Source: Rhabditophanes sp. KR3021 (lineage: Eukaryota; Nematoda; Chromadorea; Rhabditida; Alloionematidae). Taken from it: a DNA stretch of 64,000 nt. The notes below the pieces were generated by a model that worked only from the letters and a program-made list of their open reading frames with translations, did not search any database and had not been told where the DNA came from. This document shows positions 8,170-18,055 of this stretch, piece after piece (positions within the stretch are counted from its first letter, which is position 1; every line of letters begins with the position of its first letter). Position numbers and translations under genes: made by a program. The stretch spans positions 6,076,001-6,140,000 of the forward strand of contig CAUJLY010000001.1 in assembly GCA_963281155.1 (NCBI GenBank), given 5' to 3'.

Positions 8170-11100
8170 ATGTCCTTGTTTCCTCAATATGCGGAAGACA
8201 GTAAGAAGGACAAAGCTTGTTCTTCTAATAAACAAGATTTAGCAAAGAAGTTTCCATTCTTCGGTAAGAAAGATTTAACTAATAAGTTTCCTTTCTTTGC
8301 TAAAAAAGAACCCGAATTAATTACATTAAGTGATGATGATGGCAATTTGTCCGACAAAGGGGGAAATATGGCAGCAGTTTCTAAGTTGCTGGATCAAGAT
8401 TCGGAGAGAAAAGCACGAAAGAAGCGTGAAAAAAAGGAAAAAAAGAAGCTGGAACAAAGTAAGCGCAGAAAAGGCCGTAAGAGAACTTACTCATCTTCTA
8501 GTGCTGAAGAAGTAGTTGTAAAGGTAAGCAAAATATCATACGTAATTATTATATTCGTTTATAGAAAGATGAAAAATGGTGTTTCCTACGAAGATGTGAA
8601 ATAAAGGAGGCGAATGTTTCTTTTTTCGTTAAAGACACTCGACCAGACAAGTCAAACTTTCAATACAACGGTATGAATGCTCGATATGTACCATTGGTCT
8701 ACAAAAAGACATTCAATATTTGTGGATTACGAAATTTTCAACTAACGCAAAATTATCTGACGCCTGTAACTTCTAAAAACGACTACCGTTATTATACTGC
8801 AAGTAGGACGAAATCAAAACAGGATGAGAAAGTTGAAAAGATGGTTAGGCGCAAAAAGATAGATACACTAACTTCTTTTGTTCCATTGTCATTAAAGGAT
8901 GAAGAATACATGGAAAGTGAAGATTGCCAGACAATTGCTCAGACCATCAATCAAAAGTTGTCTAAAAATCCAAATGATATTGAAGGTTGGCTGGAGTTTA
9001 TAAAGATTCAAAAAGACTTGTTAAATGAAAATGGAAAAGCTGTTTCCCAAACTGTTATTGAAGAAAGAACATTAGCAATCATTGATAGGGCATTAAGGTT
9101 AAATGGAAGTAGTATCGCTTTGAAGAAAGAAAAGTTAATGCATTTATACAAAATGGGTAATATGGATGTATTCTTGAAACAATGGAATATGATATTAATT
9201 CAACACATGAATAGTTTGGAGTTATGGTCGTCTTTTTTCGAAATTATTCTTCATGATATGCGGTCTTTTAGAACAACCTATTGCATGCAATTGATGGATT
9301 ACTGCTTCGAAAAATTGTACAATATTCATAAAAAAATTACCCTCACTCATCAAGCTGAAGCAGGGACGCTGAATTTTCTTGCTAATCTGTTGTACAAAAG
9401 AGTTGCATTATTATTTCAAACAGATCGTACTGAATGTGGAGTTGCAATTATTCAGGCGTTTATCGAATTTCACTATTTTATGCCTGATTCTTTAAAGTTG
9501 TATCCCATGGCAGTCAGGAAAAAGGAATTTGAAAAGTATTGGAGCAACAACAATCCAAAAATTGGCATTTCAAATGGATGGAAGCATTCTCTTTCTGTTG
9601 ATCAGAGTTCCTTGAATCTGACAGATTATTACCAGTTAGAAGATCAACTATGCCACCAACTAGTTGATCTAGATGTTCCAGAGTCGTGGGTGCAGATAGA
9701 AAAGTTTAGACAGAAGCTAAATTGGCTGCCCATCGCAACAAATCAACACTCGATTGATGACGACAATTTCGATACTGACAGAAGAGTATCATTTGACGAT
9801 GTTAAATGTGTATTGTTTGAATTTGATGAGACAAAAGACACGGTTTTGTTTAAATTATTAAAATTGTTATCTATCGATGCTTGTACAAAAGCAGATGAAG
9901 ATTTTGAATGTTTGCCCGATATACTAAAATCTTTCGAGGTGTTTCCGGCCTTTGAAGAAGAAACTTTACATGGATCTCTACCATTTGTGGACAAGTTACT
10001 ACAGACCCTCATCGAAGAAACAACTGGAGAATTGAAACAAAAATTAATAGTAGCCAAGATAGTGACGTCAATAAAATTGATAAAGAAAGATAAAAACTAT
10101 GAAAGTTGTGCGAATGACATCGCTAAACATATTTTGAAACAAATGCTTGCTCAACCTCTCTATAATACTCCCATTAATGCTTGTATAATGGCTGAAGAAC
10201 TGTTTAAATTAGGTATCGTCAAGATAGCTCTCAAGTTGGCAAGATCTTACCTAGATACAATAAAGTGCAATTTGTTTGAGATATCAGATAGAAAGGAAAG
10301 AAATGCATACATTAGAATTTCCATGAATGTAATCAACTGGTCGGAGGATAAAAGTAACTTAATGGCGTATCTAGCATTGAAAGGAAACCTTTATGAATTC
10401 AAGCCAAGTTCTAGTGTCGACCTTATCAACGGCAGAAGAAAATGGATGTCGATTGCTAAGAGATTAGATGAATGTGTTGAAAACTGGATAGGAAATGAAT
10501 TTTCAATGTTGACATCACTCAATATGCAGTACATATATTTAGTTGGGAGAAGAATAAATGACATCGACGACTATATAGATCGAATCAAGTCTACTATTCC
10601 TAAAGAAAGATCTCGAGCGTTGGAGTTGATTTATGAAAGACAATTAAAATTGCACAAGCTATTTCTTAAAGAAAATCCACACAAGTCACCAATTACTTAC
10701 AAAAAGTTATTGGAAAGAGTTGTTCATGAATTCCCTGATAATATAGGAGTGTTAAAAGCATTTGTAGATGAAAATATCTCTGGTAACTCTTTGAATATGC
10801 ATCATACTTTATCTGCACTACCGACATCGTCAATATGCAAAAATATTGCTTCAATTTATGGCGAATGGAAAAGATATGAAAATATATTAAAAGTCGTTGA
10901 CGTTGACGCTAATTTTTCACCGGATTTTTGTCAGCTACGAAGAAGTATTGAAATAAATTGTGAAATTGTTGTCAAGAAAACATTAGATGCTTCACTTTGG
11001 AGAATTTTGTTACTGTTAGAGCATCAAAATGGGCACGAGTCTAATATTTCGTCTGTTTTTCTAAAGGGATTAGATTCATCAGTTTGGAGTAAAGCCTTCC

Positions 11101-11213
11101 TAATGGACTACATTCTTTTGCACAAAAAAGACTTTCACAATATTATTCAGCTATTTTTTGAAAAAGAAATACGTGTTCGTTGTTTAGTTGAAGAAATTCC
11201 TTTGTTACTATAA
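8170..11213 (+). CDS. NRDE2: NRDE2-like nuclear RNA-surveillance protein
   Basis: Two exons, 8170-8523 and 8565-11213 (41-bp intron, phase 0), 1000 residues. The start MSLFPQYAEDS resembles the N-terminus of NRDE2. A Lys/Arg-rich nuclear stretch with KKREKKEKKK follows at about 78-105, then the FVKDTRPDKSNFQYN block (VDKKPDP.NW.Y in vertebrate NRDE2). HAT/TPR-like helical repeats fill the rest (for example NPNDIEGWLEFIKIQKDL). The C-terminus EKEIRVRCLVEEIPLLL matches the family ending. NRDE2 regulates the MTR4-exosome in vertebrates and is required for nuclear RNAi in nematodes. The N-terminus has a duplicated KKFPFFGKK / NKFPFFAKK motif. It may be the first cistron of a pair with TVP23, since no AATAAA precedes the next start 105 bp on. 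Confidence 0.9.
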
Positions 11214-11317: not shown

Positions 11318-12350
11318 ATGGCAACACCGTTCGATCAGAATATGTCCATTGGCGGACAAACCTATGGTAACAGTGCGGGGTCCACAACAACACTCGTGGA
11401 CCAATGGAGAAGTTTAAAGCACCCAATGATATCACTAGCTCATGTAGTGTTTCGCTTTGCTCCAATCTTATTTTATGTGTTCTCAAATATGCTGGGGTAA
11501 GACATGTCTCCATCAATCAAAATATAGTAGAAAACAAAAAGCCACACTACTATTCAGAATATGCTCTGAATGGCCACGTTTTGCCAAATCATTTAGAATA
11601 AGCTTAATAGAGCATTCATGTCTGTTGAAAAATCTAAAGATTTCTTGGTAGAGTTGAAGTTGGCCACTTGATAAGTTATGGCATATACCTAGTTTACTGC
11701 TAACATTCAATTTCTAAGTAGAAAGTCTTAACGAAAGGTCAAACTTGACAGTAAATATCATGACGTAAAATAATAGTTCCCATCTAAGAATCAAAACATA
11801 AGGCACAAACCTAAACATTTTATTTATACAAAAATCTGATTTATAACCTAATATTGCAGGACAGGATTTATTGTACAAATTGTAGTTTTTGTAAGTACAT
11901 CAACTTACTATATTAATCAACTTGTTTTAGCTCATACTAATCACTTTAGACTTTTGGGTAGTCAAAAACATTTCTGGACGTCTCTTAGTTGGCCTTCGTT
12001 GGTGGGCACAAACGAATGATGAAGGCCATACCAAATGGGTTTATGAACAAGCCGAAAATCAAGCTTTATACGACCCAATCGAGTCAAAGGTATTTTGGGG
12101 AGCTCTATTCTTTGCGCCAGCCTTGTGGACTTTCTTTGTAGTTGTTGACTTCGTCACCTTCAAATGGATTTGGATGCTGTTGGCTTCCATGGGACTTGTA
12201 ATGACATCCATCAATGCATATGGTTACGTCAAGTGCAAATGGAACAATACTTCCGAGATTACAAGTTACTTTTCAAAGATGGCTCTAATGTCTATTTTAC
12301 GGAGAAATGCCCAACCAACGGCTTCTACCAATCCTACCCAAAATATTTAA
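11318..12350 (+). CDS. TVP23: TVP23/FAM18 Golgi membrane protein
   Basis: Three exons, 11318-11496, 11860-11890 (31 nt) and 11931-12350, with phases 2 and 0, give 209 residues. TVP23 hallmarks are present: KHPMISLAHVVFRFAPILFYVF, then DFWVVKNISGRLLVGLRWW, then YGYVKCKW. Four hydrophobic segments fit the tetraspanning Golgi/endosome family that works with SNAREs in late-Golgi traffic. The first intron is 363 bp, several times the local norm, and holds only short antisense open frames I could not relate to anything. AATAAA lies at about 12369. Confidence 0.9.
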
Positions 12351-13064: not shown

Positions 13065-13283
13065 TTTTGCAAAAAACGTATGCTAGAATTGAATTAATAT
13101 CACTTGAAGAGACGTTTCACCAATCGGGGTTGTCTTAAAAATCTAACCAAACAACTTAACTATGTATTTCATCACTTGGGGTTTTAATTTATGTATAAAA
13201 GCGTAGCAAGATTTCATCTGTATTCTATTTTAAATTCGTCATTATTTCATCATTTGTTAATACTGCCTAAATTATAGTTAGAA

Positions 13284-16200
13284 ATGGGGCTTGAAGAACG
13301 TATTCAGGATCTTAAAAAAGAGCTGTCTCGTACACAAAATAATAAAGCTACTGAGAAGCATATCGGTCAGCTAAATTCAAAATTGGTTCGACTCACTAAG
13401 GCTTTGGCACTAGAGCAATCAAAAAATTGTTCCTTAGCAGTCGAAAAAGTAGAAGAAGATGTGGAAGTTAAAATGGCTGACATTCCAGTTACTATTGTAG
13501 GTCATTGTTTTTTTGAATGATTAATAATAGCAAATTTAGAGTGGAGTAAAAAATCGCTTCTCATCAATTGATATTTTGGCCATTGTCCATGAATTAAGAG
13601 CATTGAAAGGGATGCGTGTTATCAACGTTTATGATATTGACTCCAAAACATACTTAATCAGACTGCACAAACCCGATGGAAAGGCAGTAGTTTTGTTTGA
13701 AAGTGGTATCAGAATCCACAAGACTCAATACGAATGGCCAAAATCCATGTTTCCTTCTTCTTTCAGTATGAAGTTCCGTAAGCATATCAAGCAAAAGAGA
13801 CTTGAGGAAGTTAGGCAAGTTGGTTGTGACCGAGTAGTTGATTTAAGATTTGGCGATGAAGAGAGGGCATGTCATGTCATAATCGAATTGTATGATCGAG
13901 GAAATGTCTTGCTCACTGATCACGAGTATACTATCTTGAATATTTTGAGACCTAGAACTGACAAGGACCAAGATGTTAGGTTTGCCGTCAGAGAACGTTA
14001 TCCATTGGAGTTGGCTCAATATGATGGGAAGATTCCAAATAGCCAAGAAATCAAGGATGCTATGGTCAAAGCGAAGAAAGGTACTCAACTGAAGAGAATC
14101 CTAGCTCCAATGACTATTTACGGCCCAGCTTTAATTGACCATTGTTTGATGGGTCAAGGGTATGCGAGCAATGTACCAGTTGGAACTCAAGTTGATTCAA
14201 GTGACCAGCATGTAACTAAGATTCTTGATGCACTAGTCGCAGCCAATGTTGAGTTTCAAAAATTGAGAGAAAGCCCAGCTCATGGCTATATCACTTATCA
14301 AAACGTCCAAAGAATTGATGGAACCGATATGGAAAAGTTCATTGAGTATCATCCAATCAAATTTGAGCAATTTACCAGTGAAAAAAGCAATTTGCTTGTC
14401 AAGGAATTTGGCGAGTTTAGTGACGCAGTAGACGAATTCTATTCTAAACTTGACTCGCAAAAAAGTGAAAAAAGAGCTCTTCAAGTTGAAAAGGACGCCC
14501 TCAAAAAAGTTGAAAATGTCAAAAAGGATCATGAAGAAAGATTGAAAGCTTTGTTAATTTCTCAGGTAAATAAATGTGTTTAAACGTCTTTAGTTAATTA
14601 TTTTTAGGTTTCACAAAAAGAACGAGCCCAGAGAATTGAAATGAACGTTGAGTTGATAGATCAAGCATTACTTGTAGTCCAATCTGCTCTTGCAAACAAA
14701 CTAAACTGGGCTGATTTGGAAGAGTTGACCAAAGCCGGGCAAGAACAGGGTAACCCTGTTGCAATGGCAATCGCTGGATTTGATTTTCATAATAATCACG
14801 TTATAATGAAATTATTGGATGAAAATGACCCGTCAGCTGCCCCAATGATTGTTGCAATAGACATCAGTTTGTCGGCCAATCAAAATGCAAGAGCTTACTA
14901 CACTGACAAGAAGAGTGCTGCCGAAAAGCAGGTAAAGACAATTCAAGCTTCGGAAAGGGCTATTAAATCAGCTCATTTGAAAGCTCAGCAAACTCTAAAC
15001 CAAGTTAAGTCCAATGTTGCTGTTTTAAGGACCAAAAAGAGTTATTGGTTTGAGAAGTTCTTTTGGTTCATTTCATCTGAAAATTACTTGGTAGTGGGAG
15101 GTCGTGATGCTCATCAAAATGAACTTTTGGTTAAAAAATACTTTAGAGCAAATGATGTTTATGTGCATGCTGATCTTCATGGTGCATCTTCTTTGATCAT
15201 TAGAAATCACATTGATGGAAACGATATTCCGCCAAAGACATTAAATGAAGCTGCTACTATGGCTATTTGTTATTCTGCGGCTTGGAACGCTAAAGTTATT
15301 TCAAATGCTTGGTGGGTAAGACATGACCAAGTATCGAGAACTGCACCAACTGGAGAGTACTTGCCAACTGGTTCCTTCATGATTCGTGGTAAAAAGAATT
15401 ATCTTCCAAATGCCCAATTGGTTATGGGATTCGCTGTTTTGTTTAGAGTCGATGAAGATACTGCTGAAAGACATAAGGACGACAGAAAAGTTGTTGTTAA
15501 GCCTGACCTGGAAAGAATTGAAGTTGCTGAGGAGGAAGAAGAGGAATTCCCAGACGTTAAGATTGATGTGAATGCCAAAGAAAAAGAAGAATTCACTCTT
15601 TTACACTTGGGACCTCAAGGAATGACTCACAAGAAGGCCAAGCAAACTGAAAGAGAAAAGTTTTTAGCTGAAAAGAAAAGAATTGAAGAAGAAGCTGCTA
15701 AAGCTAAGAGAGATAAGAAGCGTCTTAATCAAGTTTTGAACAAAGCTACCAAAAAGAAGGTCAAAAACGAAAAGGTCAAGAAACACGATGATGAGTGGTT
15801 GGAGTTGGAGAAGAAAGCAATAGTCAATGCTAAAGAAAAGATCCCAGCCAATATTGCATCTCATCTAATGGAAGATCCTAAATGTGAAGACAATGAAGAT
15901 GAGAGTGAATTCGAGGAAGAAGTCATTGTCAGGGAAGTTGTCGATGATCAAATCAAGGAACAAGAAGAGGAGGAAAGTGATGCTGAAGAAGAGAAGGATC
16001 CTGTTGTCAACCACGATGATGACGATGACGACGATGAAGAAGGTGAAGATAAGAAAGATGACGATGTTGAATTGATGAACATGATGATTGGGAATCCATT
16101 ACTCGAAGACGATATTATCGGTGCTTTGGTTGTTGTTGCTCCATACCAAACATTGAACAACTACAAGTACAAAGTTAAATTAACGCCAGGAACAGGTAAG

Positions 16201-16365
16201 AGAGGTAAAGCCGCTAAGCAAGCTATGGAGTTATTCCAACGTGAAAAGTCTGCTACTGCTGCTGAAAGAAAACTACTGAAAGTATTACAAGGAGATGGAG
16301 AAATTGCAAGAAACATCCCTGGCAAGACTAAAGTTCAAGCCCCACAACTATTCAAGAGCAAGTAA
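13284..16365 (+). CDS. NEMF: NEMF/Rqc2 (NFACT) protein with a DRG-like N-terminal exon
   Basis: Three exons, 13284-13496, 13540-14565 and 14608-16365, all joining in phase 0, give about 998 residues. Residues about 72 onward are NEMF: VKNRFSSIDILAIVHELRA, CDRVVDLRFG (the Asp-Arg pair needed for CAT-tailing in yeast Rqc2), central coiled coil, NFACT-R (YWFEKFFWFISSENYLVVGG; VYVHADLHGASS), acidic and basic stretches, and the C-terminal ALVVVAPYQTLNNYKYK block. NEMF binds stalled 60S sub-units with Ltn1. The exon carrying NEMF's usual Met begins directly after an acceptor and has no ATG; the only in-frame start is in an upstream exon that reads like the DRG1/2 GTPase N-terminus (ERIQDLKKELSRTQNNKATE). 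An acceptor lies 6 nt before that ATG. The fusion is inferred from frame and splice sites. Confidence 0.85.
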
Positions 16366-16730: not shown

Positions 16731-17371
16731 TCAATGCTTTGGTCCATTTTTCTTGGGTGGGTTTTTGTCGTAGGCAGTAAAGAAGGTTTCCCTATTAGCT
16801 GGTTCAATGTTGTTTTCTTTAGCAAAGTCAACTAAATATCTCTTCATAGCAAGAGCATCTTCTAAATCGGCGTAATATTTTGGTTCAACTTCACTAATTT
16901 CGAATTTGAGACTGTTCTTGTAAAGGTTCAAGGCAGCTTTGTTACCAACACGGACATGTAGTGATACATAACGAGCATTGTAGTTTTCAACCATGGCTTT
17001 AGCTGTTTGGTCCATCATTTTTTTAGCGATTCCGAGACGACGGTAACTACGCTTCACTGCCAATGAAGTAATATGACCATGGGGTTCCTCGTCCTCTTCT
17101 TCCATTTTAGCCAGAACGTAACCCACAATTTCTCCCTAAAATGTGGTTATTAAAGTATTGTTCATTTTATCGGATCACTTACGTTCATATCCTCGGCAAC
17201 GTAACTGAGTTGAGGCCAACTAAGAGCATGGTAGGCAAAATATTTAAATTGATACTAAAAGAGAAATAAAATACGGTTTGTCTTATACGAACATACGTTT
17301 TCAGGCAAGCACATTAAGTTACAATTCTGGATGCGAATGTAGTCTTCATGTTCGGCAGGTCGGATGTTCAT
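16731..17371 (-). CDS. NAA10: N-alpha-acetyltransferase 10 (NatA catalytic subunit)
   Basis: Three exons, 17371-17297, 17254-17183 and 17135-16731, give 183 residues. The start [19 protein letters not shown] is the Ard1/NAA10 N-terminus; [18 protein letters not shown] and [10 protein letters not shown] follow. The GNAT acetyl-CoA motif is RRLGIA (Q/RxxGxG/A) and the beta6-beta7 region has [20 protein letters not shown]10 with NAA15 co-translationally acetylates N-termini after Met removal. The disordered C-terminal tail of vertebrate NAA10 is short here. All introns are 42-48 bp. Confidence 0.95.
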
Positions 17372-17552: not shown

Positions 17553-18055
17553 ATGAAGGCCGTTATTCAGAGAGTTACTGAAGCAAGTGTGACTGTCAAT
17601 GGGGAAATAGTAAGTATTTATATTACACAAATATTTTAAAGGCTATCATGATGCAATAATTTTAGATCAGCTCAATTGGGAAAGGTTTACTGGTGTTAAT
17701 TGGTCTTGAAACCTCTGACAAACCAGAGGATGCCGAATTTATCCAAAGAAAAATATTAAATTTGCGTCTTTTTGATGGGGAAAACGGGAAAAGATGGGAC
17801 AAAAGTGTCAAGGATATGGGGTATGAAGTGTTATGTGTTTCCCAATTTACGCTGCATGCTGTATTAAAAGGAAATAAGCTAGATTTTCACAAATCAATGA
17901 ATCCAAGTGATGCTCCTATCTTTTACTCCACATTTTTAGAGAATATGAAAAAAGCCCATGAGCTGACTAAGGATGGTCAATTTGGAGCAATGATGAGTGT
18001 TAATATCGTCAACGATGGACCTGTAACTATCAACATAGACAGTAAAAAAGAATAA
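17553..18055 (+). CDS. DTD1: D-aminoacyl-tRNA deacylase (DTD)
   Basis: Two exons, 17553-17609 and 17666-18055 (56-bp intron, phase 0), give 148 residues, the normal length. MKAVIQRVTEASVTVNGEI, GLLVLIGLE, the SQFTLHA catalytic motif and NDGPVTINID (the NxGPVT motif bearing the Gly-cisPro pair) are all present. DTD hydrolyses D-amino acids, and glycine mischarged on tRNA-Ala, from tRNA as a proofreading step. An AAG acceptor-like site falls immediately before the ATG. AATAAA near 18067. Confidence 0.95.

Follow-up and report, generated by a model that had tools for sequence, protein, structure and literature searches.

The DRG GTPases carry an N-terminal helix-turn-helix (HTH) hairpin that appears unique to this family, according to a 2021 review (PMC8629797). 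Five leucines form a zipper facing helix 1 in Rbg1, the opposite side of helix 2 lies on the S5D2L insert, and the helices are connected by the bonds Glu12-Arg39 and Glu14-His27 (PMC3510508). Rbg1 function needs the HTH, Tma46 binding and polysome association do not, the polysome profile is unchanged without it, and the biochemical job of the hairpin is described as unsettled although Rbg1 fails in its absence (PMC3510508). Rbg2 touches the 60S subunit with its G and HTH domains at the stalk base, the sarcin-ricin loop and H89 (PMC8040806). Within the hairpin, JMJD7 hydroxylates K21 of DRG2 and K22 of DRG1 (PMC9001643; for the target lysine also PMC11400632). The M domain and coiled coil of NEMF are located between the P stalk and the sarcin-ricin loop, its NFACT-N appears to touch the anticodon loop of the P-tRNA, and the RQC is described as held by many individually weak contacts (PMC4321881).

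The window analysed here, i.e. the whole stretch of 64,000 nucleotides from Rhabditophanes sp. KR3021, possesses a NEMF gene with a DRG2-type N-terminus. Its features are the following:

13276..13277 (+): candidate splice or trans-splice acceptor AG just 5' of the start codon, with ATTATAG before and TTAGAAATG after the cut (sequence inspection)
13284..13496 (+): exon 1, 71 codons, DRG2-type N-terminus, reading MGLEERIQDLKKELSRTQNNKATEKHIGQLNSKLVRLTK...
13284..13409 (+): helix-turn-helix hairpin, residues 1-42; the predicted helices 3-19 and 24-48 extend slightly past it (AlphaFold, Foldseek)
13344..13346 (+): codon of Lys21, counterpart of the lysine hydroxylated by JMJD7 (K21 in DRG2, K22 in DRG1)
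13410..13496 (+): linker; disorder predicted from residue 50 on, last residues DIPVTI
13473..13475 (+): internal in-frame ATG (Met64) late in exon 1, a possible alternative start without the hairpin
13497..13539 (+): intron 1, 43 nt (not divisible by 3), GT-AG, phase 0
13540..14565 (+): exon 2, NFACT-N and start of the coiled coil (PF05833, E 7.6e-28)
14566..14607 (+): intron 2, 42 nt, GT-AG
14608..16365 (+): exon 3, NFACT-R, NFACT-C and stop (PF05670, E 6.3e-43; PF11923, E 7.5e-22)

The spliced product comprises 998 amino acids; retention of intron 1 gives a hairpin-plus-linker product of 78 amino acids. The chimera of a DRG N-terminus and NEMF, as proposed in the first-pass annotation, is almost certainly real: the product is identical to UniRef record P0001 of Rhabditophanes sp. 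KR3021, and relatives share the extension. The sequence agrees with the proposed exon at 13540, in phase 0 after an acceptor. The stated lack of an ATG in this exon holds in practice, the first in-frame ATG downstream of the acceptor being at 13612, within NFACT-N. One detail of the exon end needs revision. The first exon was said to stop at VTIVG, where G1 of DRG would begin; VTI stands, the exon closing with DIPVTI, but V-G consists of intron letters and the protein goes on with SGVKNRF. The proposed span of 13284-14565 covers exons 1 and 2; the gene is completed by exon 3. The suggestion that the capture supplied the start of NEMF is supported by the orthologues of Strongyloides ratti and S. 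papillosus, in which the only methionines before the NEMF body are at positions 1, 29 and 40, none near the place of Met64; as the stretch from residue 40 to the NEMF body contains no further Met, the start codon must come from the extension. Alternative starts could be provided by Met64 in Rhabditophanes and Met69 in S. stercoralis.

Behind hairpin and linker, NEMF is complete and ordinary in predicted structure. NFACT-N, NFACT-R and NFACT-C follow in that order, all three exceeding the Pfam gathering scores. In the full-protein AlphaFold model, the lobes are separated by a coiled coil (helices predicted at 364-425 and 503-555), and the nearest folds are those of 9gy4 (NEMF chain) and 8aaf (yeast RQC chain). 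The genome of this free-living nematode (44.8 Mb in 6 contigs searched) contains a second NFACT-R match at C4:6121979-6122360 (-), E 3.7e-20, which is CCDC25-like by eye and was rejected as a second NEMF. A candidate gene at C3:4185649 is probably Listerin, judging from an Ltn1_1st match (E 0.0045, 19.7 bits, Pfam cut-off 27) and reading by eye; DFRP1 is present (by eye), with a single DFRP_C match in the genome. With the probable Listerin and DFRP1 found, the DRG and RQC pathways both seem present. Upstream of NEMF, the window contains NRDE-2 (8565-11213 (+), PF08424) and a DUF846 protein (11931-12350 (+), PF05832; TVP23-like by eye). A D-Tyr-tRNA deacylase exon (17666-18055 (+), PF02580, E 4.5e-43) is located about 1.3 kb downstream of NEMF, with a GNAT acetyltransferase (16731-17135 (-), PF00583, E 6.2e-17; NAA10-like by eye) in between.

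Judged by sequence comparison, the N-terminal resemblance to DRGs is not due to chance. In a phmmer search of 177,635 PDB sequences with the window exon, the first three matches are Rbg2 and Rbg1 (E 2.4e-5 to 3.2e-5), and the match after these is tubulin chaperone C (E 0.022); Rbg2 is found with E 2.7e-10 when the S. ratti orthologue is the query, and with E 6.6e-9 when a mite orthologue is. AlphaFold predicts helices 3-16 and 24-52 for the N-terminal piece alone and helices 3-19 and 24-48 in the full protein, with a block pLDDT of 86-96 up to residue 40 and a disordered linker (50-72). In Foldseek against PDB, ranks 1-4 are Rbg2/Rbg1 chains (0.5-0.7 A over 39-40 columns), a result of little weight by itself since no E value falls below 0.09, which we put down to the short piece. 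The HTH hairpin is present among the DRG GTPase features. The G1-G5 GTPase domain is absent, exon 1 closing before G1 and the Pfam search of the protein giving no GTPase family; neither the S5D2L insert nor the TGS domain occurs in the Pfam listing up to E 10. For the stretch of exon 1 Pfam has nothing above its cut-offs, and the architecture may therefore have gone unflagged. Docking of the HTH on NEMF, also proposed in the first-pass annotation, may or may not occur; it draws no support from the model, in which the linker 50-72 is predicted as disordered and confidence is given within domains rather than between them.

The source of the hairpin is very probably DRG2. The exon had been likened to the start of DRG2/DRG1; the DRG similarity holds, but the source looks like DRG2 rather than both. 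Separate DRG genes elsewhere, a check suggested at the outset, are present on contig C3, each with its own N-terminal exon. The complete DRG2 (3037000-3042000, exons joined) is identical to UniRef P0122 and begins MGIAEKIQEIEKEIGRTQRNKATEYHLG... At C3:1417856, a DRG1 exon covers the N-terminal region beginning with the NKAT motif, with 69% identity to human DRG1, and the G-domain and later DRG1 exons follow about 4 kb downstream on the same strand; we take these as one DRG1 gene, of which the first ~20 residues were not located. Exon 1 as part of a nearby DRG gene is rejected on these grounds. Searched with the hairpin, the genome yields the window itself, exon 1 of DRG2 at E 0.3 and a single weak place at E 1.8, with no other near copy at a sensitivity that would miss a diverged one.

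DRG2 possesses a phase-0 intron after D-A-R-V-A-M, directly before V-G-F-P-S-V-G-K-S. Exon 1 of NEMF ends after D-I-P-V-T-I, likewise in phase 0 and after the same six residues counted from the shared Asp; the corresponding DRG1 intron is in phase 1 and lies further on. Because exon end and phase equal those of the DRG2 intron before G1 and DRG1 differs, a DRG2 5' coding segment ending at this intron appears to have been captured, and the DIPVTI at the end of the linker is probably a remnant of the DRG2 stretch before G1. DRG1 as source is disfavoured by the intron phase and by the MGI/MGL start. An intron after Asn-Lys in DRG2 is missing from the fusion exon, so that this intron is either younger or was lost from the fusion.

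The DRG2 apex has drifted in the same group whose NEMF bears the hairpin: position 19 is non-Lys in 2 of 120 DRG2 rows, those of Rhabditophanes (Arg) and Parastrongyloides (P0130, Val), the latter also with Arg22 and Met25. NEMF (P0006, L596_014600) and DRG2 (P0125, L596_014670) of Steinernema carpocapsae both derive from contigs of 7,362,381 bases and may, given the equal size, be linked; in Rhabditophanes they are on C1 and C3.

The TQxNKA motif of the extension occurs in 5 of the best 120 of 772 NEMF matches (P0001-P0005), all from Rhabditophanes and Strongyloides. The four records of the parasitic Strongyloides (P0002-P0005; two of S. stercoralis, one each of S. ratti and S. papillosus) have the same extension, align over 100% of the query in UniRef and show 65-66% full-length identity. 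P0002 of S. stercoralis is also recorded from three 'lgn' contigs, the longest of 5,135 bases, which suggests that its 995 amino acids are read continuously. A search with residues 1-75 of S. ratti returned 5 proteins with E <=10 from 173 candidates, i.e. the four Strongyloides records and the NEMF of the mite Halotydeus destructor (P0121, 1111 aa, E 1.3e-7), which has a TQxNKA extension too and was added in this way, being outside the best 120. The same search missed the Rhabditophanes protein; its sensitivity is thus limited and further fusions may exist. Of these 121 sequences, 108 begin within five residues of the usual NEMF start; P0016, P0019, P0039, P0043 and P0075 have longer N-termini and P0118 and P0120 later starts, all without TQxNKA. 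The extension is absent among the matches listed from Steinernema, Panagrellus, Acrobeloides, Bursaphelenchus, Ditylenchus, Auanema, filarial and ascarid worms, and no Parastrongyloides NEMF is among them. Titles and abstract beginnings of the papers listed on NEMF and Strongyloides, with few subscription papers covered, do not describe the fusion.

The five fusion sequences compared retain the apex as R16 T17 Q18 (K/N)19 N20 K21 A22 T23 E24, plus H26 and G28, with T17, Q18, N20, K21, A22, T23, E24, H26 and G28 kept in all five. Four DRG2 residues in helix-2 positions away from the zipper, namely Lys31 (120/120 rows), Ala32 (119/120), Ala35 (120/120) and Arg38 (120/120), are replaced in all five. 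On a helical wheel, positions 27/30/34/37/41, taken as the zipper, are directed to 140 degrees, and positions 31/32/35/38/39/42, which have changed, to about 256 degrees; by this geometry, the changed face of helix 2 would be the S5D2L side. Fusion numbering equals Rbg1 numbering minus one, and the Rbg1 bonds accordingly become 11-38 and 13-26. The pair 11-38 is lost in all five fusions (Thr or Gln at 38, in Rhabditophanes also Lys11) and the pair 13-26 is kept in all five. We read this pattern as that of a hairpin probably freed of its packing inside DRG2 and held to its apex function.

The hairpin is identical in 41-42 of 42 residues between the three Strongyloides species, compared with 62-72% for the linker and 86-89% for the NEMF body, and just 0-9% of 42-residue windows are better conserved. 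Between Rhabditophanes and Strongyloides, identity amounts to 27-28/42 (64-67%) in the hairpin and 69% in NEMF, with 53-56% of 42-residue windows more conserved than the hairpin, which indicates ordinary rather than exceptional constraint at this distance.

The five fusion hairpins form one clade (99/99) among 43 of the 120 DRG2s and human DRG1, in a tree of few columns (43) with unsettled bootstrap and Rhabditophanes on a long branch. In a quick tree of NEMF bodies (917 columns; 28 of 49 aligned sequences), Halotydeus clusters with the spiders, the worms cluster with the nematodes, and a NEMF-body tree holding the five fusions together is rejected (p-AU 4e-7). Whole-gene horizontal transfer between mite and worm is rejected since the NEMF bodies follow their animals. 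Grouping of the worm fusions with two strongyloid-group DRG2s is not rejected (p-AU 0.08, 43 columns) and leaves room for an origin within the strongyloid lineage. Of residues seen in fewer than 3 of 120 DRG2s, the first 42 positions contain 10 shared by the worms (four sequences) and 9 in the mite, coinciding at 8 positions (4, 29, 31, 32, 35, 38, 39, 42); the hypergeometric value of 3e-6 means only that the overlap is not casual, as the sequences are not independent and the positions not equally free. S32, V35 and K39 are identical in all five fusions. Given the unlike linkers and the internal Met that the mite has retained, two gains with parallel change are somewhat more likely than not; a single old gain followed by many losses has somewhat less than an even chance.

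In the best explanation as a whole, with a probability of roughly 0.45, a DRG2 hairpin has been fixed on NEMF as an extra 60S contact. A duplicated DRG2 5' segment, cut at the phase-0 intron before G1, would have landed upstream of NEMF before Rhabditophanes and Strongyloides split, been spliced onto NEMF, and now supply the start codon. The hairpin would form an autonomous module, tethered flexibly by about 25-30 residues, having kept the DRG apex RTQxNKATExHxG and given up contacts once made inside DRG2. It may reach rRNA on the 60S intersubunit face, in the region around the stalk base, H89 and the sarcin-ricin loop that the G and HTH domains of Rbg2 touch, and the linker (50-72) could allow it to extend to the vacant A-site side. 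NEMF, with its multivalent grip on 60S-peptidyl-tRNA, would thereby obtain a further weak contact and gain affinity or specificity for the split 60S, and DRGs or other A-site factors may be excluded. We infer a ribosome-facing role of the hairpin, and put forward the 60S-contact mechanism itself tentatively. As counterpoints, Met64 could start a hairpin-less protein in Rhabditophanes, and by sequence comparison hairpin conservation between Rhabditophanes and Strongyloides is not above the NEMF average. Furthermore, a lone hairpin may bind ribosomes weakly, as the polysome profile of Rbg1 is unchanged without the HTH (PMC3510508), and it may have to sit elsewhere, since the NEMF M domain is already at the sarcin-ricin loop and stalk area (PMC4321881).

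That the exon was captured only for its promoter, 5' leader and start codon, with the hairpin as a tolerated passenger, is unlikely. The extension does provide the start, with no other Met at the junction in S. ratti and S. papillosus, and the 27-28/42 identity between Rhabditophanes and Strongyloides is no better than average NEMF. A bare start-codon donor is nevertheless inadequate, because the hairpin is near-invariant within Strongyloides next to a linker of 62-72% identity; the apex positions from T17 to G28 listed above are kept in all five fusions, and the mite bears the hairpin though its NEMF retains a Met of its own. Still less likely is a role of the hairpin in trans, either as a decoy for DRGs or as a docking piece, by S5D2L packing or A-site competition, which would couple DRG and RQC decisions. 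The genome has both DRG2 and DRG1, and the far side of helix 2 in Rbg1 packs on S5D2L (PMC3510508), as a free hairpin could do in trans. Precisely this packing is the contact least likely to survive the helix-2 changes at K31, A35, R38 (invariant in DRG2) and A32 (119/120) in all five fusions, the face being assigned by geometry.

Retention of the hairpin as a modification site, with JMJD7 acting on Lys21 and NEMF becoming an oxygen- and 2-oxoglutarate-dependent target, is very improbable. K21 is present in 5/5 fusions compared and 120/120 DRG2 rows, but the six-frame, exon-by-exon search, confined to the Rhabditophanes genome, gave no convincing JMJD7 gene, and oxygen control via JMJD7 is not favoured for this reason, though the target lysine is kept. 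The human JMJD7 stretch used as query (in a check, human JMJD7 came on top and chain GH14974p, which we take to be fly JMJD7, had E 4.8e-51) found two weak matches (29-30% identity over 50-55 residues), and five Cupin_8 matches represent, by eye, four genes (JMJD5-, JMJD4-, KDM7- and JMJD8-like). JMJD7 may have been lost in this lineage, DRG1, DRG2 and the target lysine being present in the Rhabditophanes genome and the gene not convincingly found. An artefact of gene model or assembly, in which the DRG-like exon belongs elsewhere and NEMF has another first exon, is hardly credible even for a small exon before a 43-nt intron, as the fusion recurs in four Strongyloides records and the mite record, P0002 suggests continuous reading, the window contains none of the listed GTPase or DRG-insert matches, and DRG2 and DRG1 have their own N-terminal exons on C3.

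In this fusion, the DRG2 hairpin is split from its GTPase and joined to a protein of known 60S binding site, and it becomes testable whether the hairpin binds the ribosome alone and whether there is a common docking site for DRG and RQC factors. The parallel between worm and mite further hints at a division of the residues into those serving the exported function and those needed for packing within DRG2. More speculatively, with odds of about one in three, the hairpin would be an old or repeatedly gained RQC module that senses the ribosome independently and physically links the DRG and RQC pathways. An old module would have joined NEMF in the nematode-arthropod ancestor and been lost, or be unannotated, in most lineages; a repeatedly gained one would have been acquired twice and remodelled at the identical residues S32, V35 and K39. 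By either route, it would be the first DRG HTH working outside a DRG.

Compared with the HTH of DRG2 (yeast Rbg2), the fusion hairpin matches in length, predicted hairpin and zipper leucines and keeps the apex motif, Lys21 and the intron phase before G1; it differs in residues 4, 29, 31, 32, 35, 38, 39 and 42, which depart from the DRG2 norm, and in the lack of G, S5D2L and TGS domains. Like NEMF/Rqc2 of the NFACT family, the Rhabditophanes protein possesses NFACT-N, a long coiled coil, NFACT-R and NFACT-C, and it is 41-50% identical to 45 aligned non-Strongyloides NEMFs. The worm fusion differs from these in 71 additional N-terminal residues, the first 42 being the DRG2-type hairpin, and in the loss of the initiator Met (SGVKNRF or TGVKNRF versus MKNRF). 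The NEMF of Halotydeus destructor (P0121) has an equal module order, a hairpin identical in 32/42 residues to each Strongyloides sequence, and S32, V35 and K39 in common with Strongyloides; in contrast, its linker of 39 residues is unlike that of the worms, the internal NEMF Met is retained, and its NEMF body groups with spiders.
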